Source of the DNA: Lineus longissimus
Lineage: Eukaryota > Nemertea > Pilidiophora > Heteronemertea > Lineidae
Assembly (NCBI RefSeq): GCF_910592395.1
Contig: NC_088312.1
Coordinates: 19,599,292 to 19,663,291, forward strand
Length of the DNA stretch: 64,000 nt
Direction: 5' to 3'
Part shown: positions 10,641 through 39,238 of the stretch, piece after piece
Numbering within the stretch: the stretch's first letter is position 1
How the letters are laid out: every line of letters begins with the position of its first letter
Translations under genes and position numbers: made by a program
The notes under the pieces: model-generated
The model's input: the letters and a program-made list of their open reading frames with translations, nothing else
What the model was told of the DNA's origin: nothing
The model's database searches: none

Positions 10641-10811
10641 ATAGCCAAGTCTCATCAAGTCGCCAAGCTGATGAAGGCAATCGTTGGTAGGATGTCCCGC
10701 CTGGAGTGTGGTGGAGAGAACCATGGTGACGGCGCGAGGGAAGATGGGCCAAGCATTGAAGCCGCTGATGACGAGCCTGACATAGGTTTTTACATCGTCA
10801 GATTAGAATAG
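10641..10811 (+). pseudogene. 3' end of an ankyrin/cGLR gene (56 codons)
   Basis: The frame reads IAKSHQVAKLMKAIVGRMSR and on to the same stop as the full gene, ending FYIVRLE. Compared with the complete copy it has only a few substitutions (H for Y, C for R, G for D, F for C) and no frameshift. Everything upstream is unrelated, so it is the truncated end of a second copy or a duplicated tail. It cannot encode the catalytic part. Confidence 0.85.
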
Positions 10812-13121
10812 CCAGCAAGGTAACTCTCTTGGTCAATCCCAATGAAGACAATTAGCTTTAAAATTAATAATTCACTCATCTTCTCGTACATTGTATATTC
10901 CGAGATGTCAGATATCAGAAAAGAGAATTTCCTGATGATAGATCCTCTAGAAGTCATTATAATTTATATCTAAACTTTTTGATGACCTTAAATTATGTTC
11001 AAGACATGCTTAATTTTTTGACGACCTTAACGTAAATGTCCATGCTTGATATCATAGTTTTTGTTGAGAGTTCCATTGTGTAAATAACGCTGATTACAGC
11101 AAGTCCTTTTTAGGATGTAAATACCATACTAGATTACAGCACATCCGGTAGAAATAATTCTTTCATTGTCTTTGATTACAGTGACCAATTCCCCTCTTGG
11201 TTCAAAAATGCATATATACACTTTGTTTGAATGAACTATCTAACTACAATATCTCTCGTATTGGCCTACAATCCACCGAATAGATTCTTGGAGAGCTGGA
11301 CAATGATTTGTCGTGCCTGACTTAATTAAATCAAATACTGTCATGATCTTTTGGGCTTGCTTTCTTTTGTCTATCCCTCCAGCATGCAAGGTGATGGCGT
11401 CACGTGAAACCACTTCATACAAAATGAATATACAACCTGCCTGTGTTGAGTAATCGCTTTCAGAAGTACAATGTGCCTGATATCAATACGTTTATTTCCA
11501 GTAATCTTCACCCCGATGAACACTTTGTATGCGAGACGGATGTCCCGGTGTAACCACATCTATGGTTATTCCCTGGCCTCACCCGGCCCGGCCAGTTCAA
11601 ACCACGAGAGTGCATGTTTACGAGTTGGACCGACACGACAGGCGCAGCGGTCGGAAGCGAGTCTCTGGCGGGGTATCTCGGACTTTGGTTCGACATCGAA
11701 AGCTTGAAGTGCGTCAGGACCTTCAAAGCCAAGTGGTAGGGAATTTGTTCTTGAAATGACACCGGGCTCAAAATAGCTGAGATGTTGACTTTGAGAGAGA
11801 GAATCGTGAGAGATCGTGTGGTGTACAAAGGAAAACAAGCACGACCGTAACATTTTAGAAAACTTCTAAAATTATTCAGACCCCCTCCACCTCTTACACC
11901 TCCCCGTTATTCAGATATGCAATTGCAAAGCTTTAGACTTTCCGAGGTTGGGGACACATCACGGAGATGATATACCAAATGTTCACCACTTCTGAAAAAA
12001 AGTATCAGAACTTTCAGATTTTGGTCAAAAATGCACCCCCCCTAATTTTAGATGATTTCTGAAGTTTTAAAATCTATTTTCTACTTTTAACTATGAAATT
12101 GATACAAAGGCGACACATTGGCATTGTTCATCCCGATTGAGTTGAATGTTGGATGGCATCCAACGACAATGCGCATATTATCTACAGGGGCCTTGGCTTA
12201 CATATTCAGACACTCTCAGATCGGTATTATGACATAGGAAGTTGGATGTTGCACTCATTTCCTTTCATAGTACTTATGAGTTACTTACACCCTTTGATAT
12301 GCTGACTGCATGGGTGAACAAAGGTATGGACTGGTATATTTTGTATTGACATGTTAACTTGTATTGATATTGTAATTGTATGAGGTAGGGTGGCTATCTT
12401 ATAACCTTAATATCCTTATGTATTGACTTGTATAAATTGTATTGTCATGTATTGACATGTATTGACATGTATAAACTTGTATCAACTTATATTGTAATTA
12501 TGTTCGTTGTAACTTTTTATAATGATATGTGTCACAATAGTATATGGTAGAAGGCAGAAGGCCTAGAGATTGCAAGCTGTTTGAAGCCAGTCTATTACTA
12601 TCATAACATTGTATTACAAGAGAGTCACATTTATTATTTCCTATATTTCGTGAGTAACATTTAAGAGTGTGAAGCCTGGTAGGCCCTGTCACAAGTTCTA
12701 AATGATCAAGCGGTTTTGTGTACGCTTGTAATGACTCTCATTACAGAATGACTGCAAACTTGTGGATGGATATAGATTGAATACTCGTTAAGGTGATGCT
12801 ATATAGTGCCTCCATGTTGCCAGTCAACAAGAATTCATCCAAAATATCCACAAACTGGTGAAAGTGTTACTCGGAGGACATAATAGTTTGCGTTGCCACC
12901 GAACAACATGTTATATGACAAAGACAAGCAAATGCTTTTACTTCAATTTTGTGCAGAAAGGTTTTGTGTACATGTACAGTACATATAGCGTTTTAGATAA
13001 AATCACCCGACAGTCTCTTTCATATCTGCCATTATCTTGTCCGATTTTTTGGTGTTTGAAAGAGTTCCGGTGTTCCTAATACACTAACATAATATAGAGT
13101 GACTATATAGTTTCACCTTAA

Positions 13122-13346
13122 TGGTTGACAATAGGTACCGCCATTTTGGCGAGACCTCCAAATCCTAAAGCCTTTAGAGCTCTTTCAAAACATAGTGACA
13201 GCTCATTTCAAGGGCTGGAGTCTGTTTATTGTTTTCCAGAGAACAGCCTCCAGGGTTTTAAATGAGCATTCACTACATTTTGAAGGAGTTCTAATTGCTT
13301 TTTGATTTCAAGTTCGAGCCAAAATGGCGGTACCTATAGTCAACCC
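13122..13346. mobile_element. TTAA-flanked MITE, 225 bp
   Basis: It has 29 bp terminal inverted repeats (13122-13150 and 13318-13346, 27 of 29 matching, core ATAGGTACCGCCATTTTGGC) flanked on both sides by TTAA (13118-13121 and 13347-13350). No coding capacity. TTAA target duplications are typical of piggyBac and Kolobok DNA transposons, so it is a non-autonomous member of one of those. The other copy of the segmental duplication lacks it, which suggests insertion after the duplication. Confidence 0.8.
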
Positions 13347-14984
13347 TTAATCTTAGTGCACCTTCAGCTTTCTAACAATTGTTTGGGTGTCTTTTTAGAC
13401 TTCAAACTATTTTGAGTTTCTCTTTAACTTTGTTTAAGCCAACTGGCTGGTCTTAATGACTGGTCATAAAATTCAGTTTTATTTAAGCTACATGTGTATA
13501 TTTTCCCAATATATGTACCGTTAAGATATTCGCTGCAGTGGCGATTTTTACGTGACCGTAATGAGACCTTAGAAGGCTATTCTAACGTGAATTATTTTGG
13601 CCGATACGCGAATTTGTTATGAAAGATAATAATTCTATGAAGGTTGAAATGATTTTATTGCGGTAAGGCTGGGTAATGACCAGTAATGTAGTGAGTGGGT
13701 TAACTTGACAAAACAACTGCGACTTGATCACTCGTTGCAACCATTCCAGCGAAGTGTCCTTGCGAACCATATGCAAGTTATTGTAAACATTTTCAGTGAG
13801 ATTTTGATTTTTGAAGGCCCAGGTGTCCTTGGTCGAAGTTCCTCAATGCAAATCTCCTTTCATTCAGAGTTTTCTAATGAGAATTTCATCATGGCATGTG
13901 TAAAAAAGAGGTAGTCGCAGTGAATGGTTGATCTTGGGTTGTAAACAATGGCTTGTGTGCCAAACTGGTGGGGTTTGGGTGGAAAGAGTTGTTAGGTTAC
14001 CAATCTGGTGTTTTAAAAACTTGAAAGTGGCAAGAGTGGTTTTATAAAAGTGGTTTGGTGTTATTAGATTTACCTTAGTAAAATTTCAGTTCGAGATAAG
14101 AATATTCATAGGTTGCAGTATCTGGACCTATCAACGAGAAGCTTGTCCGAGTATCTATAAAAATCCGCGGACAACGACCACTTTAATTTCCACCGGTTTG
14201 TCGCCAGACTGTCCGGAATATCATATCAACATCTAAGATTCAAAACTGCCCGCAGTAATTAGTGCGACGTGGGCAAACTTTGGCAAATGAACTGATGAAA
14301 GTATTTTACAAATCAATGGTGGTTTTGTTTCGTTGGACGAACGAGTCCTTCAGTTCTCACCCCCTATTCTAGTAGGCGCTGTCTACCCGTCTCAACACTT
14401 GCGACAGGCGACACTTCAAAAAAGCATGACTTGGCTTTACTGTGTGTTTCTGGACCGAAGTCTGTTGCGATTATATTTTATAGTTCGGCTAATTAAAGCC
14501 ATTATATGTGTACATGTAATCATATGCGATTTCGCAAATCATTTTGATTACAGTTGGAAATGCACAGATAGGGGGAGATATTGCTTGTAAATGGAATGTT
14601 TCATAAAACATATTTCTATTAATACCTGTATTGGGAGAAATACATTTGTGGATCCCCTCTAGGCCCTATTGTAGTTTCCCCGCTTTTTCTTTATCTTCGT
14701 TGTTATCATGCCAATAACTAATTACTATGCTCTCCCAGGTCAGTTTGCACGCTGAGCTGCACTAACGTCAGCCAATCAGATTCTTCCAGCATCCTCACGT
14801 GACATGGGGAGCCAATCACGCCTTAGCATGAGCAAGCTCGGTGGCCCAGATTCATGGGCATCATTCTTGCTCTAGATTTACACTAAGCTACTTCACGTTT
14901 TAAATATCACAATTTTGCTATTCGTTTTGCCCGTTTCATTTCGTTTTTGGCGTGTTTCGCATAGTATTATTAGGCAAGTATACA

Positions 14985-22400: not shown

Positions 22401-23542
22401 CATAAAGATAGCTTGAACAATTTAGCAATGTTTCGTTTCATGTCGCGCGCTCTCAGTCATAAAATGGCATCGGCACTTCTGATTACCGTCCATCAAGGCA
22501 TGCATATAAGCATGTGAGATACGAACGAAGAGGCCGAGGTTGCTGAAGTAGACTGGAAAAGAAAAGTAATAATTACAAAGTGGTGAGCGACTGCAACAAC
22601 CTGAGCATTTCTGTGTGCCTCCTCAGTGTAGAAACGCACTGTTGCTGCTCGAATTTTACTTCGGAGTTCCGGACCGTTTTTCTTTCCGACCTGCCCTCCC
22701 AGACCCAGCTCCTACGGACCTGGTATACGGAAGCGAAACCATTGGCATTGAGGCGTCAGGTACGACCGTCACGTGACTGCATGATATGAAATGGCTTCGG
22801 TATGAGTTTATCAATTTTTTCATTGCAAAAGCCATCATTCCTAAGGGACTTCATTCGATTGGTTGACACTAAAACAGTATGATATAACTGATTCAAACAC
22901 ATTCGACTGTAACGCAGCATTGATTTATATGTATCATATAATACCAAGAATTGATTAAAGACGAAAGTTTTATAAAACAAGCTATTGGTGAGGTAACACT
23001 CAGTTTTGAATATAGGGGGCTTTTGTAATTTGATTAGCCTTGACTCTTCCAAGGTTGGACTTATCTCACTGCTTCTGCGTGAAATAGTTCATTAAGACAC
23101 GATTTTACACCGGGCCTCATTTTCGAGACAGCGGTCTCAATTTCTTATCTTGAATTGTGCGACATTAAGATCTCGTGTTTCATTTCAGGCAAACTTGTAA
23201 TCGCCTGGTAAAGCACTGACCCAAACAAGTGATAACCGTCGCATGTGCTTTAAATCGCGGCTTTCACCAAGAATCTAAATCGCTCGTTTGTGGAGCTGTT
23301 ACTATTTTTTCTCGCAGACGAGAGATTCTTTTAACACTCCGTTGTTTGCAGGATTATATAAAATTAATTGGACTTGTTGATTGTGCTGTCTTTAACAGGT
23401 GGCAACATATTATATCATCGCAATTCTCTGCATATAAAGATGCTTCAACTCCGAGAATGCACTGCATTATACAGTGCGTATCAACAAAAGGTAATCCAAA
23501 GTCAAGGGGTTAATATTCCAAGACTATAGTTTCAGAAGCTAC
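19421..23542. other. 4 kb without a recognisable gene
   Basis: Contains a second poly-C run of about 20 (near 19483-19502) between two degenerate direct repeats (ATTCGAATATGCAGCAG near 19438 and ATTCGATTATGTCAGGAG near 19529). Otherwise I see only short ORFs on both strands with no family resemblance, and no clear tandem repeat or RNA gene. Confidence 0.4.
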
Positions 23543-25455
23543 ATGTGGTCTACTGATAAAGAGGATATCCTCAGGTTTCCATTGATACCATTCTTGAATA
23601 ATATCAGGAAAAATCAGGAAAGGACTGCTGCAAATAAATTAGCTGAGTCCCTAGGTAATAACAAGAATGACGACTTCTGGAAAGAAATAAAAAAGGTGAA
23701 AGGAAAAGGCACTGTACTCCCTTCTAGTATGGATAATGTGAAGGGTACGGACGCAACTTGTGAACTTTTTGGTGAGAAGTTTAAACGTTTGTATAATTCT
23801 GTATCGTATGATATAAATGAGATGAATGATGTGAAGAGAGATATTGATACGGGTATTACCAGACATTGTATTGACAATAATCATGATCATGTATTGAGTG
23901 TGCACGAAGTTATGAAGGGAGTACAGTGTCTGAAGCGAGGTAAAAAAGACAGTAGCCCCAAAATTATGTCGGATCACTTTATAAATGGGGATCATTTATT
24001 ACATGTTTACGTGTCTTTTTTAGTGAGCTCCATGATGAGTCACGGATATTGCACGATGGGGTTTGTTCGAACTAAAGTAGTTCCAATTCCAAAAAACCGT
24101 AGAAAGTCTTTGAATACGTCCGATAATTATAGAGGTATTTCGCTAAGTAGCGTTATTGGCAAAATAATGGATAATATATTCCTAAAAAAGTACGAGAATG
24201 AGCTAAGTACATCTGATGCCCAGTTTGGGTTCAAGCAGGTCTCTCCACAGCTACGTGTAGCACGGCTATAAATGAAGTAATTAATTATTATAACGGTTGC
24301 AACACCGCAGTGTATTGCGTAATGCTTGATGCAAGCAAAGCATTTGATTGTGTTCATTTTGTGAAGCTATTTCGAATTTTGATCAAAAAAGGGCTATGTC
24401 CATTAGCGGCTAGGCTATTAGCCAACATCTACACACAACAACGTGTACAGGTTCAGTGGGGGAAGCATATGTCTGGTGAATTTACTGTATCCAATGGAGT
24501 TAAGCAGGGTGGGGTGCTCTCCCCCGTTCTTTTTGGAATTTATCTGGATGAGCTTATTACGAGTATAAAAACTGACGGTTTCGGCTGCCATGTTGCCAAC
24601 ATTTTTTGCGGTGTATTTGCATATGCCGATGATGTTATTCTCTTAGCACCATCGTTCTATGGGTTAAATAAGATGCTAAACACGGCTCGTCAATTTTCAA
24701 TTGAATTCAGAATATCCTTCAACGCATCTAAAAGTAGATATTTAGTCTTCGGGTCACATGACCCGCCAGGGGAGATTGTATTTGAGGGTACAAGGGTTCA
24801 AATTTCTAATGAAGAAATTCATTTGGGCATTCTTCTTGGTCCTGATGTTCGTCGGAGTAGGGTTCAGGTTTTAGTTAATGATCTGTACAAACGGACCAAC
24901 ATGCTTATGGCTCAGTTTAGGTACGCCAACTTTGAAATCAGATATAAGTTATTCAAAAGTTTTTGTATGCCGCTGTATGGTCACCAGTTGCTAGATTGTT
25001 CAAAACCATACATGGAAGAATTGTATATTGCATGGCGTAAATGTATTCGTCAGATTTTGTGTTTGCCATATCGCACTCATAATGACCTGTTACCAGCCAT
25101 TATAAAGGACTGTAGCGTTCAAACTCAATTTGAGAAAAGGTTCGTAAAATTCATTAAAGGACTGCAGAAATCAGGAAATACACTCGTAAAGGTTACAGTT
25201 GGATTATTATTTGCCGGGAGCGTCTCATCAGTGGGGAAAAGTCTAACTATGGTATTACAAAAGTACAACTGGAATAGGGATCAGCTGCCTGATGAATGTA
25301 TAATGCTAAGGGACATCAATAGGGAATTTTGGGGATTGGGGCATAATAGGGTTGCCATCCAAGTTAGGGAATTGCTTGAAATGCGGGAGGCAGGGAATCA
25401 TATTCTCACAAAAGAGGAAATAGACACGATAATTAACTTTTTGTGTACAGGTTGA
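23543..25455 (+). pseudogene. LINE reverse transcriptase, 5'-truncated, one frameshift
   Basis: Two open stretches (23543-24271 and 24310-25455) form one non-LTR retrotransposon RT after a frame change near 24235. Motifs in order: a linker FWKEIKKVKG, VVPIPKN, NYRGISLSSVIGKIMD, FGFKQ, then YCVMLDASKAFDCVH (catalytic Asp), NGVKQGGVLSPVLFGIYLD and FAYADDVILL, the catalytic YADD (24622-24633). The thumb and a C-terminal domain of about 230 residues follow. No endonuclease precedes it, so the copy is 5'-truncated, the usual LINE fate. A Jockey/CR1-like group is likely but not settled. Confidence 0.85.
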
Positions 25456-25702
25456 TTTGATGGAGTATTGTTTTTGGTGTTAGTTTTATTGTGATAGTTC
25501 AAGATACTAATGTAACTTATTCAGGATCATCTCCAAGAATGAGAGGTTTTCGGGTTCGACTCTCAGTCTTACCTTTTACTTTGTTTGCCTTATCGTAAAC
25601 TTGTATTTGCACCCAACTCTGTATTGTCTTATTGCACCTTATTTTTTGTTATCTGTACAACGGAAAGTAGTACGAATAAACATATATATATATATACATA
25701 TA
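25456..25702 (+). other. LINE 3' flank ending in a TA-rich tract
   Basis: Probably the LINE 3' untranslated region. A box-B-like GGTTCGACTCT (25553-25563) is present without a matching box A. It ends in a (TA)n run, the target of the adjacent mariner element. Confidence 0.4.
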
Positions 25703-26222
25703 TAATTACGGTCTCGCATGGCCGAGTAAATTGTAATTGAAAATGACGAGTTCAAATCGAAAATTTCCAAGTTTGTGTAATCAGTGCAAGTTGAATGAAT
25801 ACGTTCAAATTGTACGTTTACCAACTTAAAAAGGTTAAAACGAACACGGTTTTCTCAGGAATTATTTGGCTTCATTCAGAGATCTTCTAATCTTTTATTT
25901 TATGCACCCACACTTTTAACATGCCCTCCGCCTCTTGCAACACGAAGTTCACAGCGATAGAGCATGTCCTGAACTGCTTGTCTGATCACTGCTGGATTCC
26001 CGCGTAAAACATCCACTTCGTGTTGAATTCGGCCCTCCAAGTCATTAAGATCACGGGGCGGAGTCGCAAACAACTTGTTTTTCATGTATCCCCAAAGGAA
26101 AAAGTCACATAGTGTGAGATCAGTTTGTAATCGTTTATTTCAATTCACCAAACTTGGACATTTTTGGATTTGAGCTCGTCATTTTTAATTACAATTCACC
26201 CGGTCATGTGAAACCGCAATTA
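25703..26222 (-). mobile_element. Internally deleted mariner/Tc1-type element
   Basis: About 73 bp imperfect terminal inverted repeats: 25703-25776 (TAATTACGGTCTCGCATGG...) against the reverse complement of 26149-26222 (TAATTGCGGTTTCACATGA...). Both arms share the words AATTGTAATT, AAAATGACGAG and CCAAGTTTG. TA at each outer edge fits the TA target duplication of this superfamily. Between them only the last part of a transposase remains. Confidence 0.85.
25900..26115 (-). pseudogene. Mariner/Tc1 transposase C-terminus
   Basis: The minus strand reads TLCDFFLWGYMKNKLFATPP, where DFFLWGYMK contains the third catalytic acid of the DDE/D triad, then RDLNDLEGRIQHEVDVLRG and RCELRVARGGGHVKSV, the family's usual C-terminal end. 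The N-terminal DNA-binding part and first two acids are absent, so it is inactive. Confidence 0.85.
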
Positions 26223-26520
26223 ATGCAAGAATGGTATCATTGGAAAGCTGAGGATCTCCTTTTCATTAGTAAACCACATGTTAATCAGCTTGTTAAACTA
26301 AATAGTATTGGCGTATTAACTCCATGAATTTGGATCACCTTTTTTTGATACGCACTGTATTGTGGAAATGTTTGATTTCCAGCTCCCAAGAACAGTCCAC
26401 GATGCCAGCCACACGGCGCCAACTTGCTCTGTTCGATGCAGCAGCATTCGGTTATTTTTGGCTAATCAGATTCCTCCTGTCATTCTGTGAACTGGAGTAC
26501 ATATAAAGTGCAAAAATTAC
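26223..26520 (+). other. Upstream region of the ankyrin/cGLR gene, with a decayed ankyrin-like ORF
   Basis: The ORF 26402-26506 (MPATRRQLALFDAAAFGYFW and on, 34 codons) looks like one ankyrin repeat (LFDAAAFGYFWLIRFLLS) and stops 14 bases before the gene's ATG in another frame. It could be a decayed first repeat, an upstream ORF, or the end of an upstream exon. I see no convincing TATA box or CpG-rich promoter here; the mariner remnant lies just upstream. Confidence 0.35.
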
Positions 26521-29500
26521 ATGGATCACCTAATCATCATCGCCTCGATTATAGGAGACAAAAATCTTGTGGCTCAATTGATTACAGCCGGGGCGAATAT
26601 AGAATGTAAAGACAATGACGGGAATACTCCAATCATCATCGCCTCGATTAAAGGACACCAAGAGGTGGTGGACCTATTGATTAAAGCGGGGGCGGATATA
26701 GAATGTAAAAACAATGGCGGGAATACTCCAATCATCATCGCCTCGATAAATGGACACAAAGAGGTGGTGGATCTATTGATTAAAGCGGGGGCGAATATAG
26801 AATTTAAAGACACTGGCGGGAATACTCCAATCATCTTTGCCTCGATTAAAGGACACCAAGAGGTGGTGGATATATTGATTAAAGCGGGGGCGAATATAGA
26901 ATGTAAACGCAATGGCGGGAATACTCCAATCATCATCGCCTCGATTAAAGGACACAAAGAGCTGGTGGATCTATTGATTAAAGCGGGGGCGAATATAGAA
27001 CATGCCAACGGTGAGGGAAGAACTCCTATAGGGTGTGTTTCGATTGAAGGACACAAAGAGGTGGCGGATCTATTGATTAAAGCGGGGGCGAATATAGAAT
27101 GTAAAGGCAATGGCGGGAATACTCCAATCATCATCGCCTCGATAAAAGGACACCATGAGGTGGTGGATCTATTGATTAAAGCGGGGGCGGATATAGAATG
27201 TAAAGGCAATTGCGGGAATACTCCAATCATCATCGCCTCGATTAATGGACACCAAGAGGTGGTGGATCTATTGATTAAAGCGGGGGCGAATATAGAATGT
27301 AAAGACAATGGCGGGAATACTTCAATCATCATCGCCTCGATTAAAGGACACAAAGAGGTGGTTGATCTATTGATTAAAGCGGGGGCCGATATAGAATGTA
27401 AAGACAATGACGGGAATACTCAAATCATCATCGCCTCGACGAATGGACACCAAGAGGTGGTGGATCTATTGATAAAAGCGGGGGCGAATATAGAATGTAA
27501 AGGCAATGGCGGGAATACTCCAATCATCATCGCCTCGATTAAAGGACACAAAGAGGTGGTGGATCTATTGATTAAAGCGGGGGCGAATATAGAACATGCC
27601 AACGATGAGGGAAGAACTCCTATAGGGTGTGTTTCTATTCAAGGACACAAAGAGGTGGTGGATCTATTGATTAAAGCGGGGGCGAATATAGAATGCAAAG
27701 ACAATGGCGGGAAAACTCCAATCATCATCGCCTCGATTAAAGGACACAAAGAGGTGGTGGATCTATTGATTAAAGCGGGGGCGAATATAGAATGTAAAGA
27801 CAATCTCGGGAATACTCCAATCATCATCGCCTCGATTAATGGATACCAAGAGGTGGTGGATCTATTAATTAAAGCGGGGTCGAATATAGAATGTAAAGAC
27901 AATGGCGGGAATACTCCAATCATCATCGCCTCGATTCAAGGACAACAAGAGGTGGTGGATATATTGATTAAAGCGGGGGCGAAAATAGAATGTAAAGACA
28001 AAGGCGGGAATACTCCAATCATCATCGCCTTGATTAATGGATACCAAGAGGTGGTGGATCTATTGATTAAAGCGGGGGCGAATATAGAACATGCCAACGA
28101 TAAGGGAAGAACTCCTATAGGATGCGTTTCTATTGAAGGACACAAAGAGGTGGTGGATCTATTGATTAAAGCGGGGGCGAATATAGAATGTAAAGACAAT
28201 GGCGGGAATACTCCAATCATCATCGCCTCGATTCAAGGACACAAAGAGGTGTTGGATCTATTGATTAAAGCGGGGGCGGATATAGAATGTAAAGACAATG
28301 GCGGGAATACTCCAATCATCATCGCCTCAACTAATGGACACCAAGAGGTTGTGGATCTATTGATTAAAGCGGGGGCGAATATAGATTGTAAAGACAATTG
28401 CGGGAATACTCCAATCATCATCGCCTCGACTAATGGACACCAAGAGGTGGTGGATCTATTGATTAAAGCGGGGGCGAATATAGAACATGCCAACGATGAG
28501 GGAAGAACTCCTATATTGTGTGTTTCTATTGAAGGACACAAAGAGGTGGTGGATCTATTGATTAAAGCGGGGGCGAATATAGAATGTAAAGACAATGGCG
28601 GGAATACTCCAATCATCTTTGCCTCAACTAAAAGACACCAAGAGGTGGTGGATCTATTGATTAAAGCGGGGGCGAATACAGAATGTAAAGACAATGGCGG
28701 GAATACTCCAATCGTCATCGCCTCGATTACAGGACAAAAAGAGGTGGTGGATCTATTGATTAAATCGGGGGCGAACATAGAATGTAAAGACAGTAGCGGG
28801 AATACTCCAATCATCATCGCCTCGATTAAAGGACACCAAGAGGTGGTGGATCTATTGATTAAAGCGGGGGCGAATATAGAACATGCCAACGATGAGGGAA
28901 GAACCCCTATAGGGTGTGTTTCGATTAAAGGACACAAAGAGGTGGTGGATCTATTGATTAAAAAGGGGGCGGATATAGAATGTAAAGACAATGGCGGGAA
29001 TACTCCAATCATCATCGCCTCGATTCAAGGACACAAAGAGGTGTTGGATCTATTGATTAAAGCGGGGGCGGATATAGAATGTAAAGACAATGGCGGGAAT
29101 ACTCCAATCATCATCGCCTCAACTAATGGACACCAAGAGGTTGTGGATCTATTGATTAAAGCGGGGGCGAATATAGATTGTAAAGACAATTGCGGGAATA
29201 CTCCAATCATCATCGCCTCGACTAATGGACACCAAGAGGTGGTGGATCTATTGATTAAAGCGGGGGCGAATATAGAACATGCCAACGATGAGGGAAGAAC
29301 TCCTATATTGTGTGTTTCTATTGAAGGACACAAAGAGGTGGTGGATCTATTGATTAAAAAGGGGGCGGATATAGAATGTAAAGACAATCTCGGGAATACT
29401 CCAATCATCTTCGCCTCGACTAATGGACACCAAGAGGTGGTGGATCTATTGATTAAAGCGGGGGCGAATATAGAATGTAAACACAATCTCGGGGATACTC

Positions 29501-32500
29501 CAATCATCATCGCCTCGATCAAAGGACACAAAGAGGTGGTGGATCTATTGATTAAAGCGGGGGCGAATATAGAATGTAAAGACAATTACGGGAATACTCC
29601 AATCATCGTCCCCTCGATTAAAGGACACCAAGAGGTGGTGGATCTATTGATTAAAGCAGGGGCGGATATAGAATGTAAAAACAATGGCGGGAATACTCCA
29701 ATCATCTTCGCCTCGACTAATGGTCACCAAGAGGTGGTGGATCTATTGATTAAAGCGGGGGCGAATATAGAATGTAAAGACAATCTCGGGGATACTCCAA
29801 TCATCATCGCCTCGATCAAAGGACACAAAGAGGTGGTGGATCTATTAATTAAAGCCGGGGCGGATATAGAATGTAAAGACAATGGCGAGAATACTCCAAT
29901 CATCATCGCCTCGATTCAAGGACAAAAAGAGGTCGTGGATCTATTGATTAAAGCGGGGGCGAATATAGAATGTAAAGACAATGGCGGGAACACTCCAATC
30001 ATCATCGCCTCGATTAATGGACACCAAGAGGTGGTGGATCTATTAATTAAAGCGGGGGCTAATATAGAATGTAAAAACAATGGCGGGAATACTCCAATCA
30101 TCATCGCCTCGATTAAGGGACAAAAAGAGGTGGTGGATCTATTGATTAAAGCGGAGGCGAATATAGAATGTAAAGACAATTACAGGAATACTCCAATCAT
30201 CATCGCCTCGATTAATGGACACCAAGAGGTTGTGGACCTATTGATTAAAGCGGGGGCGGATATAGAATGTAAAAACAATGGCGGGAATACTCCAATCATC
30301 ATCGCCTCGATAAATGGACACAAAGAGGTGGTGGATCTATTGATTAAAGCGGGGGCGAATATAGAACGTAAAGACAATAGCGGGAATACTCCAATCATCA
30401 TCGCCTCGACTAATGGACACAAAGACATGGTCGATCTATTAATTAAAGCGGGGGCGAATATAGAATGTAAAGACAATGGCGGGAATACTCCAATCATCAT
30501 CGCCTCGATTAAAGGACAAAAAGAGGTGGTAGATCTATTGATTAAAGCGAGGGCGAATATAGAATGTAAAGGCAATGGCGGTAATACTCCAATCATCATC
30601 GCCTCGATTAATGGACACCAAGAGGTGGTGGATCTATTGATTGAAGCAGGGGCGAATATAGAACATGCCGACGATGAGGGAATAACTCCAATAGTGTGTG
30701 TTTCTATTGAAGGACACAAAGAAGTGGTGGATATATTGATTAAAGCAGGGGCGAATATAGAATGTAAAGACAATGGCGGGAAAACTCCAATCATCATCGC
30801 CTCGATTAAAGGACACAAAGAGGTGGTGGATCTATTGATTAAAGCGGGGGCGAATATAGAATGTAAAGACAATGGCGGGAATACTCCAATCATCATCGCC
30901 TCGATTAAAGGACACAAAGAGGTGGTGGATCTATTGATTAAAGCGGGGGCGAATATAGAATGTAAAGACAATGGCGGGAATACTCCAATCATCATCGCCT
31001 CGATTAAAGGACACAAAGAGGTGGTGGATCTATTGATTAAAGCGGGGGCGGATATGGAATGTAAAGGCAATCTCGGGAATACTCCAATCATCATCGCCTT
31101 GATTAAAGGACACCAGGAGGTGGTGGATCTATTGATTAAAGCGGGGGCGAATATAGAACATGCCAACGATGAGGGAAGAACTCCTATAGGGTGTGTTTCT
31201 ATTGAAGGACACAAAGAGGTGGTGGATCTATTGATTAAAGCGGGGGCGAATATAGAATGTAAAGACAATGGCGGGAATACTCCAATCATCATCGCCTCTA
31301 TTAAAGATCACCAAGAGGTGGTGGATCTATTAATTAAAGCGGGGGCGAATATAGAACATGCCAACGATGAGGGAAGAACTCCTATAGGATGCGTTTCTAT
31401 TGAAGGACACAAAGAGGTGGTGGATCTATTGATTAAAGCGGGGGCGAATATAGAATGTAAAGACAATGGCGGGAATACTCCAATCATCATCGCCTCAATT
31501 AAAGGTCACAAAGAGGTGGTGGATCTATTGATTAAAGCGGGGGCGAATATAGAATGTAAAGACAATGGCGGGAATACTCCAATCATCTTTGCCTCGGCTA
31601 ATAGACACCAAGAGGTGGTGGATCTATTGATTAAAGCAGGGGCGAATATAGAATGTAAAGACGATGGCGGGAATACTCCAATCATCATCGCCTCGATTAA
31701 AGGACACAAAGAGGTGGTTGATCTATTGATTAAAGCGGGGGCGGATATAGAATGTAAAGACAAAGGCGGGAATAATCCAATCATCATCGCCTCGATTCAA
31801 GGACACCAAGAGGTGGTGGATATATTGATTAAAGCGGGGGCGATTATAGAATGTAAAGACAAAGGCTGGAATACTCCTATCATCATCGCCTCGCTTAATG
31901 GACACAAAGAGGTGGTGGATCTACTGATTAAAGCGGGGGCGAATATAGAATGTAAAGACAATGGCGGGAATACTCCAATTATCATCAACTCGATTAAAGG
32001 ACAAAAAGAGGTGGTGGATCTATTGATTAAAGCGGGGGCGAATATAGAATGTAAACACATCGGCGGGAATACTCCAATCATCGTCGCCTCGACTAATGGA
32101 CACCAAGAGGTGGTGGATCTATTGATTAAAGCGGGGGCGAATATAGAATGTAAAGACAATGGCGGGAATACTCCAATCATCATCGCCTCGATTAATGGAC
32201 ACCAAGAGATGGTGGATCTATTGATTAAAGCGGGGGCGGATATAGAATGTAAAGACAATAGCGGGATGACTCCAATCAACGTCGCCTCGTTTAATGGACA
32301 CCAAGATGTGGTGGATCTATTGATTAAAGCGGGGGCGGATATAGAATGTAAAGACAATGGCGGGTATTTTCCAATCATCATTGCCTCGGTTAAAGGACAC
32401 CAAGAGGTGGTGGATCTATTGATTAAAGCGGGGGCGAATATAGAACGTGAAGACAATGGCGGGTATATTCCAATCATCACCGCCTCGACTAATGGACACC

Positions 32501-32740
32501 ATGAGGTGGTGGATCTATTAATTAAAGCGGGGGCGAATATAGAATGTAAAGACAATGACGGGAATACTCCAATCATCATCGCCTTGACTAGTGGACACCA
32601 AGAGGTGGTGAAGCTATTGATTAAAGCGGGGGCGAATATAGAATGTAAAGACAATGGCGGGAATACTCCAATCATCATCGCCTCGACTGAAGGACACAAA
32701 GAGGTGGTGGATCTATTAGTTAAAGCGGATGCAATTATTG
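26521..32740 (+). repeat. 99 bp tandem array encoding ankyrin repeats
   Basis: About 63 units of exactly 99 bp with no length change. Most units are type A (ECKDNGGNTPIIIAS...). Nine are type B (EHANDEGRTPIGCVS...), with CATGCC at 27001, 27595, 28090, 28486, 28882, 29278, 30664, 31159 and 31357; their spacings are 6, 5, 4, 4, 4, 14, 5 and 2 units. The near-identity of units at DNA level implies recent expansion or gene conversion. The minus strand is open in long stretches (up to 370 codons), which is a by-product of the repeat. Confidence 0.95.
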
Positions 32741-34860
32741 AAGTCAGTAACTATGAAAACGACACTCCGATAGTTTGCGCAGCTAGTAGGGGTTATGTTG
32801 AAATTGTAGACGTTTTGTTGAAAGAAGGTGCTTGTTCCAGAAGTTCTAGTTATGGATCGATATTAAATATCGGTGCAAAATTTGGTCGAAGGCGGGTCGT
32901 TGAATACCTTTTGAGACGCGGGATGTCATTAGAAAGTTGTGACTTGAAAGGAAACACCCCACTTCAAAATGCTATCATAAAGGGTCATCTCTCAGTGGTC
33001 CAACTCCTAATAAGGAGTGGAGCAGATACATCCACACCACACTCTTCATCAGAGAGTATTATATATTCTGCGGCTTCGCGTGGCCATGCCGATATCGTGA
33101 AATACTTTGGAAGCAGTGATGCACGGAAGTTATTGGATTTGCCCAATGCCAGTGGGTGGTCGCCTATTGCCAAGGCAGTTTCAGGTGGTCATTTTCGGAC
33201 AGTTAGACAACTTCATCAGCTTGGAGCTGACATGAACTGCAGTGTAAATGGAAAAGGACTCCTTCATCTAGCAGCTGAGTCCGGTTGCCTAGATATCTAT
33301 CAATATCTTATCATCGCTGGGCTTGACTGCAAACGACTCAACATCCATGGATTGAAGGCTTATGAATGCTTCCCCTTTCAATCAAAACTTAATTATCAAG
33401 CAAGCAACCGATTAGGACATTCCTCCGAACAAAGTCTCTCTTACGTCATGTCTCGATTAAATGAGCAATATGTTACACCCGCGTATAGATACAAACTTTC
33501 AGAACTATCGGGTGTACTGGGACTAGGCAGCGTGAATATTATCGAGGGTGGTGTTTCGGAAACTATCATGAGGTTTGTAAGGGAGAAGGAGGTTTTTAAG
33601 TGTTTAGAGCTATGTGGAAGTTCGGCTGAGGGCACGAAGGTTCAGCTGCCTGATGAAATGGACTTCCTTAGATTGGTAACTGCAAATCATCTCTCTCGAA
33701 ACGAAATAGTTGATACCTTACATGGATATAAGTATATACAAACTAGAACATTTAAGAACAGGTTTTTATCAAGTAGAGCACTCCATGAGAGTGAAAGCGA
33801 AAACCTAGAATCTAGCGCAAAAGCCCAAGAGTCTAAAAAAAGCGGAGAAATACTTTTGCAGGCAGTTGCTGGAGGAGGCGGTGCCAGTGTTCCTGTGACT
33901 ATCAGATGGCCCGATGATAAACCTTCAAAACGCATTGTCTCAGAGCATATAGTAACAACCGTACCTGTAGATGATTGGCCCGATAATTGTCAAGATGATT
34001 GGTCCGATTATGCACTACAGAAAGGAGAATCTGAAAGTGAGGTAACGGCGGACGTTTGTGTTTATCAACGGACCGGATACATCTTATCTCAAGTTGATGC
34101 TAGGAGAGGATTGGCCAGTGTTCCTGTGACTATCAGAAGGCTTGAAAATATATCATCCAGTCTCCTTATCTCTGTGGATATAGTACCGATATTGCATGTT
34201 GATGATTGGCCAGACGATGCTATCAAGAAGACCTGGCGAATGGACGAGGACACCCTGAGAAAGAGTGGGTATAGGCTGGTCCTAAAACCGCCACACAAGG
34301 ACAGTGAGTACGGACGGTTGCTACCGGAGGAAGACAGAGAAAGAATGTTGCGGATCTCCTTCTCTCATCTAGAACCTGCCACAATCACACCTTTGGATCC
34401 AAGAATCAAAGACGCATACATCACAGCAAAGTGTCTGAGGTCACCTATGGCATGTGGCGTTGTGATTAGAGACACGAACGGCGTTATACATTTCGTCAGT
34501 CATTTCCTTACAAGCTACCTCCTGAAGACAGTCTTCCTCCATAACATAGACGACTTCATTGAGACAAACAGGAGCCTGCCAGAGATGGTCTACATCATCT
34601 ACAGCCAACTTGAGGATTACCTCGGCAAGGGCAACCTACCGTTCTACTGGCAGCCCAGCGTCAATCTGCTGGAAGGCTTGAAACTCAACATAGCCAAGTC
34701 TTATCAAGTCGCCAAGCTGATGAAGGCAATCGTTGGTAGGATGTCCCGCCTGGAGCGTGGTGATGAGAACCATGGTGACGACGCGAGGGAAGATGGGCCA
34801 AGCATTGAAGCCGCTGATGACGAGCCTGACATAGGTTGTTACATCGTCAGATTAGAATAG
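26521..34860 (+). CDS. Giant ankyrin-repeat protein fused to a cGAS-like (Mab-21) nucleotidyltransferase
   Basis: A single uninterrupted ORF of 2779 codons. Residues 1 to about 2075 are about 63 nearly identical 33-residue ankyrin repeats; about six divergent ones follow to about 2285. The C-terminal 490 residues match the Mab-21/cGAS-like fold: a spine helix (LNEQYVTPAYRYKLSELSG), the GSS loop and first two acids in GSSAEGTKVQLPDEMDF (G2366, E2379, D2381), the third acid D2553 in ISVDIVP, then RMLRISFSHLE (2608-2618), SYLLKTVFLH (2665-2674) and LPFYWQPSVNLLEGL (2706-2720). Family members (cGLRs) make cyclic dinucleotides or related signals in innate immunity when a ligand binds; ligand and product cannot be told here. 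The ATG lies inside the first repeat with a stop upstream in frame; an upstream exon remains possible. A truncated 3' copy is at 10641. Enzyme activity is inferred, not shown. Confidence 0.88.
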   Translation: MDHLIIIASIIGDKNLVAQLITAGANIECKDNDGNTPIIIASIKGHQEVVDLLIKAGADIECKNNGGNTPIIIASINGHKEVVDLLIKAGANIEFKDTGGNTPIIFASIKGHQEVVDILIKAGANIECKRNGGNTPIIIASIKGHKELVDLLIKAGANIEHANGEGRTPIGCVSIEGHKEVADLLIKAGANIECKGNGGNTPIIIASIKGHHEVVDLLIKAGADIECKGNCGNTPIIIASINGHQEVVDLLIKAGANIECKDNGGNTSIIIASIKGHKEVVDLLIKAGADIECKDNDGNTQIIIASTNGHQEVVDLLIKAGANIECKGNGGNTPIIIASIKGHKEVVDLLIKAGANIEHANDEGRTPIGCVSIQGHKEVVDLLIKAGANIECKDNGGKTPIIIASIKGHKEVVDLLIKAGANIECKDNLGNTPIIIASINGYQEVVDLLIKAGSNIECKDNGGNTPIIIASIQGQQEVVDILIKAGAKIECKDKGGNTPIIIALINGYQEVVDLLIKAGANIEHANDKGRTPIGCVSIEGHKEVVDLLIKAGANIECKDNGGNTPIIIASIQGHKEVLDLLIKAGADIECKDNGGNTPIIIASTNGHQEVVDLLIKAGANIDCKDNCGNTPIIIASTNGHQEVVDLLIKAGANIEHANDEGRTPILCVSIEGHKEVVDLLIKAGANIECKDNGGNTPIIFASTKRHQEVVDLLIKAGANTECKDNGGNTPIVIASITGQKEVVDLLIKSGANIECKDSSGNTPIIIASIKGHQEVVDLLIKAGANIEHANDEGRTPIGCVSIKGHKEVVDLLIKKGADIECKDNGGNTPIIIASIQGHKEVLDLLIKAGADIECKDNGGNTPIIIASTNGHQEVVDLLIKAGANIDCKDNCGNTPIIIASTNGHQEVVDLLIKAGANIEHANDEGRTPILCVSIEGHKEVVDLLIKKGADIECKDNLGNTPIIFASTNGHQEVVDLLIKAGANIECKHNLGDTPIIIASIKGHKEVVDLLIKAGANIECKDNYGNTPIIVPSIKGHQEVVDLLIKAGADIECKNNGGNTPIIFASTNGHQEVVDLLIKAGANIECKDNLGDTPIIIASIKGHKEVVDLLIKAGADIECKDNGENTPIIIASIQGQKEVVDLLIKAGANIECKDNGGNTPIIIASINGHQEVVDLLIKAGANIECKNNGGNTPIIIASIKGQKEVVDLLIKAEANIECKDNYRNTPIIIASINGHQEVVDLLIKAGADIECKNNGGNTPIIIASINGHKEVVDLLIKAGANIERKDNSGNTPIIIASTNGHKDMVDLLIKAGANIECKDNGGNTPIIIASIKGQKEVVDLLIKARANIECKGNGGNTPIIIASINGHQEVVDLLIEAGANIEHADDEGITPIVCVSIEGHKEVVDILIKAGANIECKDNGGKTPIIIASIKGHKEVVDLLIKAGANIECKDNGGNTPIIIASIKGHKEVVDLLIKAGANIECKDNGGNTPIIIASIKGHKEVVDLLIKAGADMECKGNLGNTPIIIALIKGHQEVVDLLIKAGANIEHANDEGRTPIGCVSIEGHKEVVDLLIKAGANIECKDNGGNTPIIIASIKDHQEVVDLLIKAGANIEHANDEGRTPIGCVSIEGHKEVVDLLIKAGANIECKDNGGNTPIIIASIKGHKEVVDLLIKAGANIECKDNGGNTPIIFASANRHQEVVDLLIKAGANIECKDDGGNTPIIIASIKGHKEVVDLLIKAGADIECKDKGGNNPIIIASIQGHQEVVDILIKAGAIIECKDKGWNTPIIIASLNGHKEVVDLLIKAGANIECKDNGGNTPIIINSIKGQKEVVDLLIKAGANIECKHIGGNTPIIVASTNGHQEVVDLLIKAGANIECKDNGGNTPIIIASINGHQEMVDLLIKAGADIECKDNSGMTPINVASFNGHQDVVDLLIKAGADIECKDNGGYFPIIIASVKGHQEVVDLLIKAGANIEREDNGGYIPIITASTNGHHEVVDLLIKAGANIECKDNDGNTPIIIALTSGHQEVVKLLIKAGANIECKDNGGNTPIIIASTEGHKEVVDLLVKADAIIEVSNYENDTPIVCAASRGYVEIVDVLLKEGACSRSSSYGSILNIGAKFGRRRVVEYLLRRGMSLESCDLKGNTPLQNAIIKGHLSVVQLLIRSGADTSTPHSSSESIIYSAASRGHADIVKYFGSSDARKLLDLPNASGWSPIAKAVSGGHFRTVRQLHQLGADMNCSVNGKGLLHLAAESGCLDIYQYLIIAGLDCKRLNIHGLKAYECFPFQSKLNYQASNRLGHSSEQSLSYVMSRLNEQYVTPAYRYKLSELSGVLGLGSVNIIEGGVSETIMRFVREKEVFKCLELCGSSAEGTKVQLPDEMDFLRLVTANHLSRNEIVDTLHGYKYIQTRTFKNRFLSSRALHESESENLESSAKAQESKKSGEILLQAVAGGGGASVPVTIRWPDDKPSKRIVSEHIVTTVPVDDWPDNCQDDWSDYALQKGESESEVTADVCVYQRTGYILSQVDARRGLASVPVTIRRLENISSSLLISVDIVPILHVDDWPDDAIKKTWRMDEDTLRKSGYRLVLKPPHKDSEYGRLLPEEDRERMLRISFSHLEPATITPLDPRIKDAYITAKCLRSPMACGVVIRDTNGVIHFVSHFLTSYLLKTVFLHNIDDFIETNRSLPEMVYIIYSQLEDYLGKGNLPFYWQPSVNLLEGLKLNIAKSYQVAKLMKAIVGRMSRLERGDENHGDDAREDGPSIEAADDEPDIGCYIVRLE
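33883..34222 (+). repeat. 231 bp in-frame duplication inside the nucleotidyltransferase
   Basis: The 24 bases GCCAGTGTTCCTGTGACTAT(CAGA) occur at 33883 and again at 34114, 231 bp (77 codons) apart. Both lead into a segment ending VDDWPD. The second copy has ISVDIVP with the expected third acid (D2553). The first reads VSEHIVT, with His2476 at that place. So the segment carrying the third metal-binding acid is doubled, and only the downstream copy looks functional. Confidence 0.85.
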
Positions 34861-37800
34861 CGAGCAAGGTAACTCTCTTGGTCAATCCCAATGAAGACAA
34901 TTAGCTTTAAAATCAATAATTCACTCATCTTCGCGTACATTGTATATTCCGAGATGTCGGATATCAGAAAAGAGAATTTCCTAATGATAGATCCTCTAGA
35001 ATTCATTATAATTTATATCTAAACTTTTTGATGACCTTAAATTATGTTCAAGACATGCTTAATTTTTTGACGGCCTTAACCTAAATGTCCATGCTTGATA
35101 TCATAGTTTCGTTTGTGAGTTCCATTGCGTAAATAACGCTGATTACAGCATGTCCTTTTTAGGATGTAAAGACCATAGTAGATTACAGCACAGCCGGTAG
35201 AAATAATTCTTTCATTGTCTTTGATTACAGTGACCAATTCCCCTCTTGGTTCAAAAATGCATATACACTTTGTTTGAATGAACTATCTAACTACAATATC
35301 TCTCGTATTGGCCTACAATCCACTGCATAGATTCTTGGAGAGCTGGACAATGATTTGTCGTGCCTGACTTAATTAAATCAAATACTGTCATGGTCTTTTG
35401 GGCTTTCTTTCTTTTGTCTATCCCTCCAGCATGCAAGGTGATGGCGTCACGTGAAACCACTTCATACACAATAAATATACAACCTGCCTGTGTTGAGTAA
35501 TCGCTTTCAGAAGTACAATGTGCCTGATATCAGTACGTTTATTTCCAGTAATCTTCACCCCGTTGAACACTTGGTATGAGAGACGGATGCTCTGGTGAAA
35601 CCAACAATCTATGGTTATTCCCTGGCCTCACCCGGCCCGGCCAGTTCAAACCACGAGAGTGCATGTGTACGAGTTGGGCCGACGCGACAGGCGCAGCGGT
35701 CGGAAGCGAGTCTCTGGCAGGGTATCTCGGACTTTGGTTCGACATCGAAAGCCTCAAGTGCGTCAGGACCTTCAAACCCAAGTGGTAGAGAATTTGTTCT
35801 TGAAATGACACCGGGCTCAAAATAGCTGAGATGTTGACTTTGAGACAGAGAATGGTGAGAGATCGTGTGGTGTACAAAGGAAAACAAGCACGACCGTAAC
35901 ATTTTAGAAAACTTCTGAAATTATTCAGACCCCCTCCACCTATTACACCTCCCGTTATTCAGAGATGAAATTGCTAAACTGTAAACTTTCCGAGGTTGGG
36001 GACACATCACGTGGATGATATACCAAATGTTCACCACTTCTGAAAAAAAGTATCAGAACCTTCAGATTTTGGTAAAAAATGCAACCCTGCCTTATTTTAG
36101 ATGATTTCTGAAGTTTTACAATCTATTTTCTACTTTTATGAAATTGAAATTGAAATTGATACAAAGGCGACACATTGGCATTGTTCATCCTGATTGAGTT
36201 GAATGATGGATGGCATCCAACGACAATGCGTATGATATCTACAGGGGGCTTGGCTTACATATTCAGACACTCTCAGATCCGTATTATGACATAGGAAGTT
36301 GGATGTTTCACTCAATTCCTTGCATAGTACTTATGAGTTACTTACACCCTTTGATATGCTGACTGCATGGGTGAACAAAGGTATGGACTGGTATATTTTG
36401 TATTGACATGTTAACTATATAACTATATAACATGTATCGATATTGTAATTGTATGAGGTGGGGTAGCTACCTTATAACCTTGATTCCCTTATGTATTGAC
36501 TTGTATAAATTGTATTGTCATGTATTGACATGTATTGACATGTATAAACTTGTATCGACTTATATTGTAATTATGTTCTGTGTAACTTTATATAATTATA
36601 TGTGTCAAAATATTATAATGGTAGAAGGCAGAAGGCCTAGGTATTGCAAGCTGTTTGAAGCCAGTCTATTACTATCATAACATTGTATTACAAGAGAGTC
36701 ACATTTATTATTTCCTATATTTCGTGAGTAACATTTGAGAGTGTGAAGCCTGGTAGGCCCTGTCACAAGTTCTAAATGACGAAGTGATTACGGTTTGTGT
36801 ACGCTTGTAATGACGCTCATTACAGAATGACTGCAAACTTGTGGATGGATATAAATTGAATACTCGTTAAGGTGATGCTATATAGTGCCTCCATGTTGCC
36901 AGTCAACAAGAATTCATCCAAAATATCCACAAACTGGTGAAAGTGTTATTCGGAGGACATAATAGTCTGCGTTGCCACCGAACAACATGTTATATGACAA
37001 AGACAAGCAGATGCTTTTACTTCAATTTTGTGCAGAAAGGCTTTGTGTACATGTACAGTACATATAGCGTTTTAGATAAAATCACCCGACAGTCTCTTTC
37101 ATATCTGCCATTATCTTGTCCGATTTTTTGGTGTTTGAAAGAGTTCCGGTGTTCCTAATACACTAACATAATATAGAGTGACTATATAGTTTCACCTTAA
37201 TGGTTGATGTACCTTAATGTACCGTTAAGATATTCGCTGCAGTGGCGATTTTTACATGACCATAATGAGACCTTAGAAGGCTATTCTAACGTGAATTATT
37301 TTGGCCGATACGCGAATTTGTTATGAAAGATAATAATTCTATGAAGGTTGAAAAGATTTTATGGCGGTAAGGCTGGGTAATGACTGGTAATGTAGTGAGT
37401 GGGTTAACTTGACAAAACAACTGCGCCTTGATCACTCATTGCAACCATTCCAGCGAAGTGTCCTTGCGAACCATATGCAAGTTATTGTAAACAGTTTCAG
37501 TGAGATTTTGATTTTTGAAGGCCCAGGTGTCCTTGGTCGAAGTTGCTCAAAGCAAATCTGCTTTTATTCAGAGTTTCCTAATGAGAATTTCATCATGGCA
37601 TGTGTAAAAAAAGAAGAAGTCGCTGTGAATGGTTGATCTTGGGTTGTAAACAATGGCTTGTGTGCCAAACTGGTGGGGTTTGGGTGAAAAGAGTTGTTAG
37701 GTTACCAATCTGGTATTTTAAAAACTTGAAAGTGGCAAGAGTGGTTTTATAAAAGTGGTTTGGTGTTATTAGATTTACCTTAGTAAAATTTCAGTTCGAG

Positions 37801-39238
37801 ATAAGAATATTCATAGGTTGCAGTATCTGGACCTATCAACGAGAAGCTTGTCCGAGTATCTATAAAAATCCGCGGACAACGACCACTTTAATTTCCACCA
37901 GTTTGTCGCCAGACTGTCCGGATTATCATATCAACATCTAAGATTCAAAACTGCCCGCAGTAATTGGTGCGACGTGGGCAAACTTTGGCAAATGAACTGA
38001 TGAAAGTATTTAACAAATCATTGGTGGTTTTGCCTCGTTGGACGAACGAGTCCTTCAGTTCTCACCCCCTATTCTAGTAGGCACTGTCTACCCGTCTCAA
38101 CACTTGCGACAGGCGACACTTCAAAAAGAAAGTCCTGGCTTTACTGCGTGTTTCTGGACCGAAGTCCGTTGCGATTATATTTTATAGTTCGGCTAATTAA
38201 AGCCATTATATGTGTACATGTAATCATGTGCAATTTCGCAAATCATTTTGATTACAGTTTGGTAATGCACAGATAGGGGGAGATATTGCTTGTAAATGGG
38301 ATGCTTCATAAAATTCGTGTCCGTCTTCAAGCAATAAGACTCGAAATATGGTTAGACGATTTATGTCATTCGGTACAGATTCATCCTAACCGGTGTAGAA
38401 GTAGAAAATGTCCGAGGGAAAAACCGTCCACCCTATTGTATTTTGTCAGATTATGGTATTATGGTTCTTTCGGTGACATTACCGTCAATAGGTCAGAGAT
38501 ATATATATATATTTTACAGAGCATAATAGAATCCTTTGCTCCCCGGAAATTCTATCCTGGGGCATTTCAAACTTCTACACCGGACTCATTGAAAACACTC
38601 ACGTTTCCATATGAGGGCGGTTCGTGGGGTGGGGGGGGGGGGGGGGTCTCAGATGTTCCTATCTCTTTGATACTCTCTGTAGTCAATGTGAGCCTTAGAG
38701 GCAGCACGTACTTGGATATCACTATGTATGTTTATTGTTGCTTTTGCGCTGTTTAGTTCAGTTATCATGGTGTTTGTATTCTTTATATGAGGGACAGGAT
38801 TTGCAACACTTACGAAGTGTACTAAGTATGTAATCATTATGATAGATGTATTTTATCGACGACTGTCTTTGATGAGTTTGCTGAGTCCTTGTACTACTAA
38901 GTGTTAAAGCCTATTTACGAGTGTCCCGTAAATGGATTCGCCCAGGACTTGATGATACTACGTACAGACCTTCGTACCTCGTACTATGTTGCTTATAAAG
39001 ATTGCGAAACCTCCCTATTATTTCAATAATTAGATTATAGCCTGAGGCAAGAAAATGACAAACATTGTTGTCCGAGTTCGATATATATGTATAGCTAGTA
39101 TAGTAATCAACAGAGACTGGAGGGCACCGTATTACTCTGAACGAAGCCTTTAAATGAACATGGACGAGACGCTCTTCTTTCGAAGTAAGGACTGGACAAC
39201 TGAAGCAAGGATGCCCGTTTTGGAAATTGCACCAACCC
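34690..39238 (+). repeat. Segmental duplication, copy 2
   Basis: Matches 10641-14608 and 18516-19420 in the same order and orientation. It starts inside the cGLR coding end (ATAGCCAAGTC at 34690) and ends in poly-C near 39236-39252. Here the two halves join directly at TCATAAAATTCG (about 38306-38317). No gene is supported after the stop at 34860. I see no canonical AATAAA close to the stop. Confidence 0.85.

Follow-up and report, generated by a model that had tools for sequence, protein, structure and literature searches.

The best-characterized cGAS-like receptors (cGLRs) are nucleic-acid sensors in which the surface of the enzyme itself binds the ligand. In the passages of the published survey that we draw on, cGLRs are recognized by G[S/G] followed by three acids in the pattern [DE]h[DE]...[DE], and a stricter form of this pattern has Q or T before GS and 50-90 residues between the second and third acid (PMC9980059). 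The same passages report that 87% of cGLRs are without extra domains, that some carry ankyrin or TPR modules, with ankyrin-fused members known in animals such as Stylophora pistillata, and that some animals have large cGLR expansions, over 200 in some bivalves (Li et al. 2023, PMC9980059). Fungi offer a second point of comparison: passages of Dyrka et al. (2014, PMC4986451) describe positive selection on the concave binding face in those NLRs whose ANK, TPR or WD repeats are highly conserved.

Here we describe a gene of the ribbon worm Lineus longissimus that lies within a 64,000-nucleotide stretch of DNA (C5:19599292-19663291, hereafter the window), and the family to which it belongs. Like the published ankyrin-cGLRs, the Lineus family joins a core cGAS-like enzyme to ankyrin repeats and keeps the catalytic acids; the fusion with ankyrin to which the first-pass annotation of this DNA drew attention is, as such, already known (PMC9980059). 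The text of that survey mentions neither nemertea, ribbon worm or Lineus nor positive selection, the passages that we draw on give no array lengths, and our literature search on cGLR or Mab-21 with ankyrin or Nemertea found no report of the Lineus family. With the fungal NLRs the Lineus arrays share near-identical repeats, change in repeat number and selection on the binding face, as far as the passages of PMC4986451 go, and fungal NLRs with high-identity repeats would be the nearest known parallel in way of working. The output module differs, being NACHT/NB-ARC in the fungal proteins and a cGAS-like nucleotidyltransferase in this animal, and no homology is claimed.

A single open frame of ankyrin repeats

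The proposal of about 69 ankyrin repeats in one 8.3 kb frame was confirmed: the frame runs without a stop from end to end (Table 1) and, by our reading of the repeat split, holds 69 repeats (1 + 62 + 6). Ankyrin repeats were recognized by Pfam in 59 Ank and 61 Ank_4 significant stretches, and a scan with our own profile counted 65. No match to a NACHT or NB-ARC domain was found by Pfam in the 2779-aa protein at E up to 0.01. The 62 in-register repeats lie at a mean distance of 8% from their consensus, and the identical 386-bp block within them is a recent internal duplication. The N-terminal start TGVHIK.K.YM is also found in 6 of the paralogues fetched from the genome.

The openness of the frame alone says little, because antisense frames in the array are likewise long, the array being repetitive. 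The frame is nevertheless not open by chance, since the 493 differences from consensus across the 62 repeats include 0 stops, where 8-17 would be expected, and there is no indel in 62 x 99 bp.

Table 1. Features of the window gene and of related stretches within the window.
Feature	Position	Strand	Remarks
Copy of part of the gene (3' end) with the flank that follows it	10641..14608	+	pairs with 34690-38313
Upstream flank	25702..26560	+	also present at 8 paralogue loci (92.7-95.5% DNA identity), entire or split in two
ORF, ankyrin array and Mab-21/cGAS-like nucleotidyltransferase	26521..34860	+	2779 aa, 295 kDa, one frame without stop
First, N-terminal ankyrin repeat	26521..26619	+	residues 1-33; starts at first Met
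62 ankyrin repeats	26620..32757	+	residues 34-2079; exact 99-bp register, no indel
386-bp block	28181..28566	+	mismatch-free copy at 28973-29358, 792 bp downstream
Six diverged C-terminal ankyrin repeats, adjoining the enzyme domain	32758..33348	+	residues 2080-2276, by our reading of the repeat split
cGAS/Mab-21-like nucleotidyltransferase domain	33448..34683	+	residues 2310-2721
Activation-loop GS (2366-2367) and catalytic E2379, D2381 in DEMDF	33616..33663	+	motif reading
First copy of old in-frame duplication within the catalytic domain	33864..33998	+	third acid lost in this copy
Second copy, bearing third catalytic acid D2553 (34177-34179, in ISVDIVP)	34092..34231	+	DNA copies compared
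Mab-21_C (PF20266) stretch	34501..34683	+	residues 2661-2721, Pfam

The enzyme domain belongs to the Mab-21/cGAS superfamily

The array is followed by an enzyme domain of about 410 residues and then a C-terminal tail. GS 2366-2367, E2379, D2381 and D2553 were all located where the first-pass annotation had read GSS...DEMDF and a third acid in ISVDIVP. Its proposed check by Mab-21 HMM succeeded in part: the window protein matched PF20266 (30.4 bits, cut-off 24.1), while on its own it gave no match to PF03281, the N-terminal Pfam Mab-21 domain. Among the 26 sequences of a profile built from family members, PF03281 was found in 24 and PF20266 in 25. With phmmer, the window protein matched solved structures of a cGAS-like receptor (2.6e-4) and a Mab-21 protein (0.0086).

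Against the PDB, the 26-member profile reached 2.2e-14 with C. virginica cGLR1 (8gjw; profile positions 23-323 of 363) and 1.6e-11 with the best of the cGAS entries (profile positions 16-323). In all, 43 PDB sequences were matched at E up to 1, of which 39 are cGAS or cGAS-like receptors by name or content, or are the two named only 'Uncharacterized protein'. Under this last name, 4jlx is, with 4jlz, porcine cGAS by PDB title, and 4kb6 is presumably porcine cGAS also. A Mab-21 protein and MB21D2 were matched too, and one match is an unrelated chimera (E 0.23). Sequence homology to the superfamily thus extends over the nucleotidyltransferase (NTase) core and the C-terminal helical part. With cGAS and Cv-cGLR1 the profile match covers most of the enzyme domain, and the catalytic acids are aligned; neither of these two has, to our knowledge, an ankyrin array. 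Unlike both, the window domain is acidic, is without a zinc-thumb pattern and has extra residues inserted after its second and before its third acid. AlphaFold2 gave a low pLDDT of 39.6 for the window domain with 8 sequences, and one of 59.9, also low, for the metagenome relative P0004, in which it was chiefly the ankyrin portion that was modelled with confidence; the PDB structures listed as similar to the P0004 model are ankyrin or designed repeat proteins, which says nothing on the enzyme part.

The catalytic G, E, D and D are present in 39/39 loci examined (the window gene and 38 of the 73 others), among 21 columns that are invariant across these loci at a median pairwise identity of 0.40 (minimum 0.24). 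Together with the profile matches to cGAS and cGLR structures, this bears out the proposed cGAS/Mab-21 relationship with an intact triad. S2665, Y2666 and K2669, which we take to match nucleotide-contacting residues of cGAS, are likewise invariant in 39/39. The NTase domain is under moderate constraint (dN/dS 0.37-0.67 between the window gene and 13 close paralogues, 0.63 over all 91 close pairs); the duplicated insert within it has a dN/dS of 1.11.

The duplication that produced this insert is about 140 bp long and older than the 386-bp block of the array. The window gene (171), its nine fetched C17 relatives of the same subfamily and two further loci (L018, L019) have 171-173 residues from the second acid to the third, a spacing that agrees with the in-frame duplication. 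Elsewhere the spacing was 83-88 residues in ten loci, 103 in L020 and 386 in L021 (C8:20318923-20328922), where the loop duplication seen in the window gene has apparently gone through several rounds.

The published G[S/G] and three-acid pattern is present in 39/39 loci examined, the window gene included. The strict pattern is missed by the window gene at two points: C precedes GS in place of Q/T, and the 171-residue spacing exceeds 50-90 residues, a range into which 10/39 loci fall. Because of these two departures we call the window gene cGLR-like, outside the strict cGLR definition; the motif that had been described as intact is so in its G, E, D and D and not in its agreement with the strict cGLR pattern.

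These data also bear on whether the domain is an enzyme at all. MiD51-type relatives and MAB21L1, which are without known second-messenger synthesis, would be precedents for a catalytically silent scaffold, with the fold kept for nucleotide or protein binding and the array serving as a structural linker; MiD51 and MAB21L1 do appear among the fold matches, and the stretch between the acids, with its 171 residues in the window gene and as many as 386 in L021, also speaks for this reading. A passage of the cGLR survey adds that whether Mab21L1-related proteins make such signals is not understood (PMC9980059). We nevertheless consider this reading unlikely, since all 39 loci examined keep the activation-loop G and each of the three acids, and in a dead enzyme some members would be expected to lose acids.

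The nature of the ligand can be approached in the same way. That the enzyme domain, like cGAS, binds a nucleic acid as its activating ligand, with the array only localizing the enzyme, would agree with the response to dsDNA or dsRNA of the cGLRs tested so far, although the ligand of one active coral cGLR enzyme is unknown, according to passages of the survey (PMC9980059). The window domain, however, has a pI of 5.34 and a net charge of about -15, the family domains divide into 31 negative and 8 positive, and a zinc-thumb pattern was found in 0/39; we will see later that amino-acid changes concentrate on the binding face of the array. Nucleic-acid sensing by the enzyme domain is, on balance, somewhat less likely again than a silent scaffold.

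A large family in the Lineus genome

A search of the genome (391,118,348 bases in 30 contigs) with a 470-aa enzyme query matched at least 92 pieces, which merged to at least 74 loci on 16 contigs; these counts are lower bounds and include the window gene itself as well as a fragment that lies at 10629-10808 of the window. Stop-free frames of at least 600 aa surround 67/74 loci (range 600-3205, median 1247), 7/74 are short or interrupted and 41/74 lie in clusters. Eleven family frames reach 2000 aa or more. The suggestion of a solenoid far longer than in known cGLRs is not supported in that form: the solenoid is not unique, the window gene being one of these 67 loci and only second in frame length. 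The longest, a 3205-aa open frame at G000:C20:3987369, has the family enzyme domain and repeats that are only about 30% identical to those of the window gene.

Comparisons within the family cover 38 of the 73 other loci; the 35 of 74 left out include the in-window fragment, and L001-L008, which duplicate in shorter form the window gene and C17 loci that were also fetched by position, were set aside. For 18 of the 38 (L029-L046) the fetched sequence is limited to 3 kb, which truncates their arrays. The enzyme domain lies inside an open frame in 38/38, and our own scan found at least one ankyrin match in 36/38, with none in L030 and L041. Array length differs greatly between close paralogues, from 6 to 65 ankyrin matches.

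A protein database search in the whole-length setting found no relative among 6895 candidates. In a shorter setting, two Lineus and two metagenome proteins were found among the best 7998 candidates scored, to which a profile search added at least two mussel proteins and one metagenome protein; one database relative, P0007, is without the second acid. The ankyrin-enzyme fusion seems older than the expansion within Lineus longissimus itself, because the metagenome proteins P0004 and P0005 fall among Lineus members in the tree, where support is 0.956 for a clade of 28 including P0004 but 0.316 at the node that joins all family members. A viral origin was rejected: 199 pattern matches were seen in viral contigs, and none was confirmed as a relative.

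Both Lineus proteins in the database are shortened. LOC135501136 (718 aa) corresponds exactly to residues 194-911 of the 911-aa L009 frame, and LOC135492269 (316 aa) exactly to the end of the 2444-aa L021 frame, starting at residue 2129 and so without array or catalytic motif. Surveys built on predicted proteins may for this reason miss such families.

Amino-acid change concentrates on the binding face of the array

Changes were counted by codon parsimony on trees of repeats, an approximate measure since repeats recombine, in the 11 arrays that have 8 or more repeats in register. Of the 62 repeats of the window gene, a regular expression took 58, 54 of them unique; the first window test used 61. 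A first set of positions (2, 3, 5, 13, 14 and 33), which we take to be the binding positions of the DARPin design, was fixed before the window test. A second set, adopted after a first ranking of positions had been seen, consists of the six positions randomized in a designed ankyrin library (2, 3, 5, 10, 13 and 14), as given in a passage of PMC3308923; such libraries are artificial binders and serve here as a yardstick for the binding face only.

Over the whole window array, dN/dS relative to the consensus was near 1. This value is a mixture of fast and slow positions, and simple purifying selection on the array was rejected. At the first set of positions the rate relative to synonymous change was 2.04 vs. 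0.75 elsewhere (permutation, 0.00045), and 10/10 other arrays went in the same direction (binding face 1.33-7.57 vs. 0.52-1.59), giving a higher binding-face dN/dS in 11/11. Pooled synonymous rates were nearly equal in the two classes of positions (0.197 and 0.191). Jointly, for 214 unique repeats, dN/dS was 2.47 vs. 0.72 with the first set (Fisher, 1.4e-12), binding positions lying above neutral (1.7e-6) and the others below it (0.001), and 2.56 vs. 0.69 with the published set. In 100 neutral simulations on the inferred tree, the first set gave a mean of 1.02 (SD 0.14) and a maximum of 1.39, and framework positions a minimum of 0.83. Positions 2, 3, 5, 10, 13 and 14 were all among the eight fastest-changing at each of three kappa values. 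Amino-acid change is thus concentrated at the ankyrin binding face, with the framework conserved, and the combination of near-identical repeats and binding-face selection holds for either set (2.47-2.56 vs. 0.69-0.72). Concerted exchange of whole repeats between the window gene and other members was also considered and set aside: the window gene has no identical repeat in common with any of the 10 other arrays.

A control array outside the family (C5:23605361; 26 repeats, 25 unique) gave 2.22 vs. 0.83 with the first set (permutation, 0.025) and 2.01 vs. 0.89 with the published set (permutation, 0.053), on few changes (18 non-synonymous at first-set positions), most of which affect the hairpin and position 10. 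Because this array also shows an excess, part of the binding-face pattern may be general to such ankyrin arrays. Positions 13 and 14 were not among its twelve fastest, so that on one comparison array change at these two positions is particular to the family. The control array itself (L048 and L049, C5:23605361-23610000) is a second high-identity ankyrin array, with its frame interrupted downstream, where long frames read as further ankyrin repeats; it gave no match in the enzyme-domain search of the genome.

A possible sensor of proteins

The immune-sensor reading of the first-pass annotation gains support from the concentration of change on the binding face. We consider it probable, from sequence comparisons, that this is a large family of intracellular ankyrin sensors coupled to second-messenger synthesis, in which a diversifying binding solenoid is joined to a cGLR-like enzyme. 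The array would bind a protein ligand, whether microbial or a non-self or modified-self protein, as suggested by the selection pattern on the binding face. Ligand binding would then release or cluster the enzyme domain, which, since the catalytic acids are invariant, may be expected to make a cyclic nucleotide. A STING-type receptor would read this signal, a step proposed because the genome has a single exon for the start of the STING ligand-binding domain (L047, C11:2036599), which scored 27.4 bits in the genome search and 30.1 as a frame, and 2.4e-5 for the frame against STING of the PDB; the neighboring frames tested gave no STING match. In such a cGLR, the task of sensing the ligand would have passed from the surface of the enzyme to a solenoid of diversifying repeats, by the same evolutionary logic as in fungal NLRs whose repeats are of high identity.

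The ligand could also come from within the species, by self/non-self recognition like that of fungal NLRs in heterokaryon incompatibility. The range of array lengths (6-65) and the binding-face change do resemble fungal non-self genes as described in passages of PMC4986451. The STING exon, however, is no less compatible with an antimicrobial route, and we regard recognition within the species in place of pathogens as improbable.

A more far-reaching version of the protein-sensor model, which we offer tentatively as possible and somewhat less likely than not to hold in full, is that of a germ-line repertoire of ~70 cyclic-nucleotide-producing receptors built from interchangeable ankyrin units, which would be diversified at their binding positions, in arrays that are re-cut by unequal exchange and connected to cGLR-STING signaling. 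If this is true, each gene, and perhaps each individual, would recognize different proteins, and the family would be the ankyrin equivalent of variable lymphocyte receptors or of fungal NLR repertoires. The position of a long diversifying solenoid ahead of a cGLR-type enzyme that is intact suggests that this pathway can sense proteins directly and that its specificity evolves one repeat at a time, and would bring the evolutionary pattern of fungal NLRs into animal cyclic-nucleotide immunity.

Copying by DNA duplication and the genomic surroundings

The shared upstream flanks (Table 1) extend up to 0.86 kb and are non-coding; on the downstream side, as much as 1.6 kb is common to paralogues at 86-99%. 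Because non-coding flanks are shared with paralogues, recent copies are DNA duplications; a retrocopy origin of these was rejected on the 92.7-95.5% identity of the upstream flank with 8 loci. The gene had been said to have just duplicated part of itself, and 34690-38313 does have a counterpart at 10641-14608, split into two parts with DNA identities of 94.6 and 96.3%; 38307-39247 recurs at 18513-19425 (93.2%).

Such copying raises the question of whether the locus is simply selfish or decaying, with array size and diversity as by-products of unequal exchange in a transposon-rich region. Reverse-transcriptase fragments lie on both sides of the window gene, there are partial duplicates, 7/74 loci are short or interrupted, stops occur further upstream in several arrays (4 of the array matches listed), and the shared N-terminal start is missing from the frame in four close paralogue loci. 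Against this, 67/74 loci are open over at least 600 aa, the window array has none of the 8-17 stops expected, the enzyme domain is under constraint and the neutral simulations do not give the binding-face pattern; of the alternatives considered, we hold this one to be the least likely, and very improbable.

Retrotransposon-type frames were seen at 23495-25455 (+), 42156-45795 (-) and 47935-48630 (-), and RVT_1 (Pfam) was found in three of five frames tested (24217-25455, 43134-43781 and 47935-48630), indicating retroelement remains on both sides of the window gene. One frame within 16217-18419 (-) has a weak phage-integrase-type N-terminal match (E 0.014), and this stretch is perhaps a tyrosine-recombinase retroelement. 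At 54924-56255 (-) there is a weak zinc-domain match only, and at 51703-52830 (-) a C2H2 zinc-finger gene with many significant Pfam matches. Tandem repeats occupy 48806-50103, including about six 113-bp units at 97% matches.
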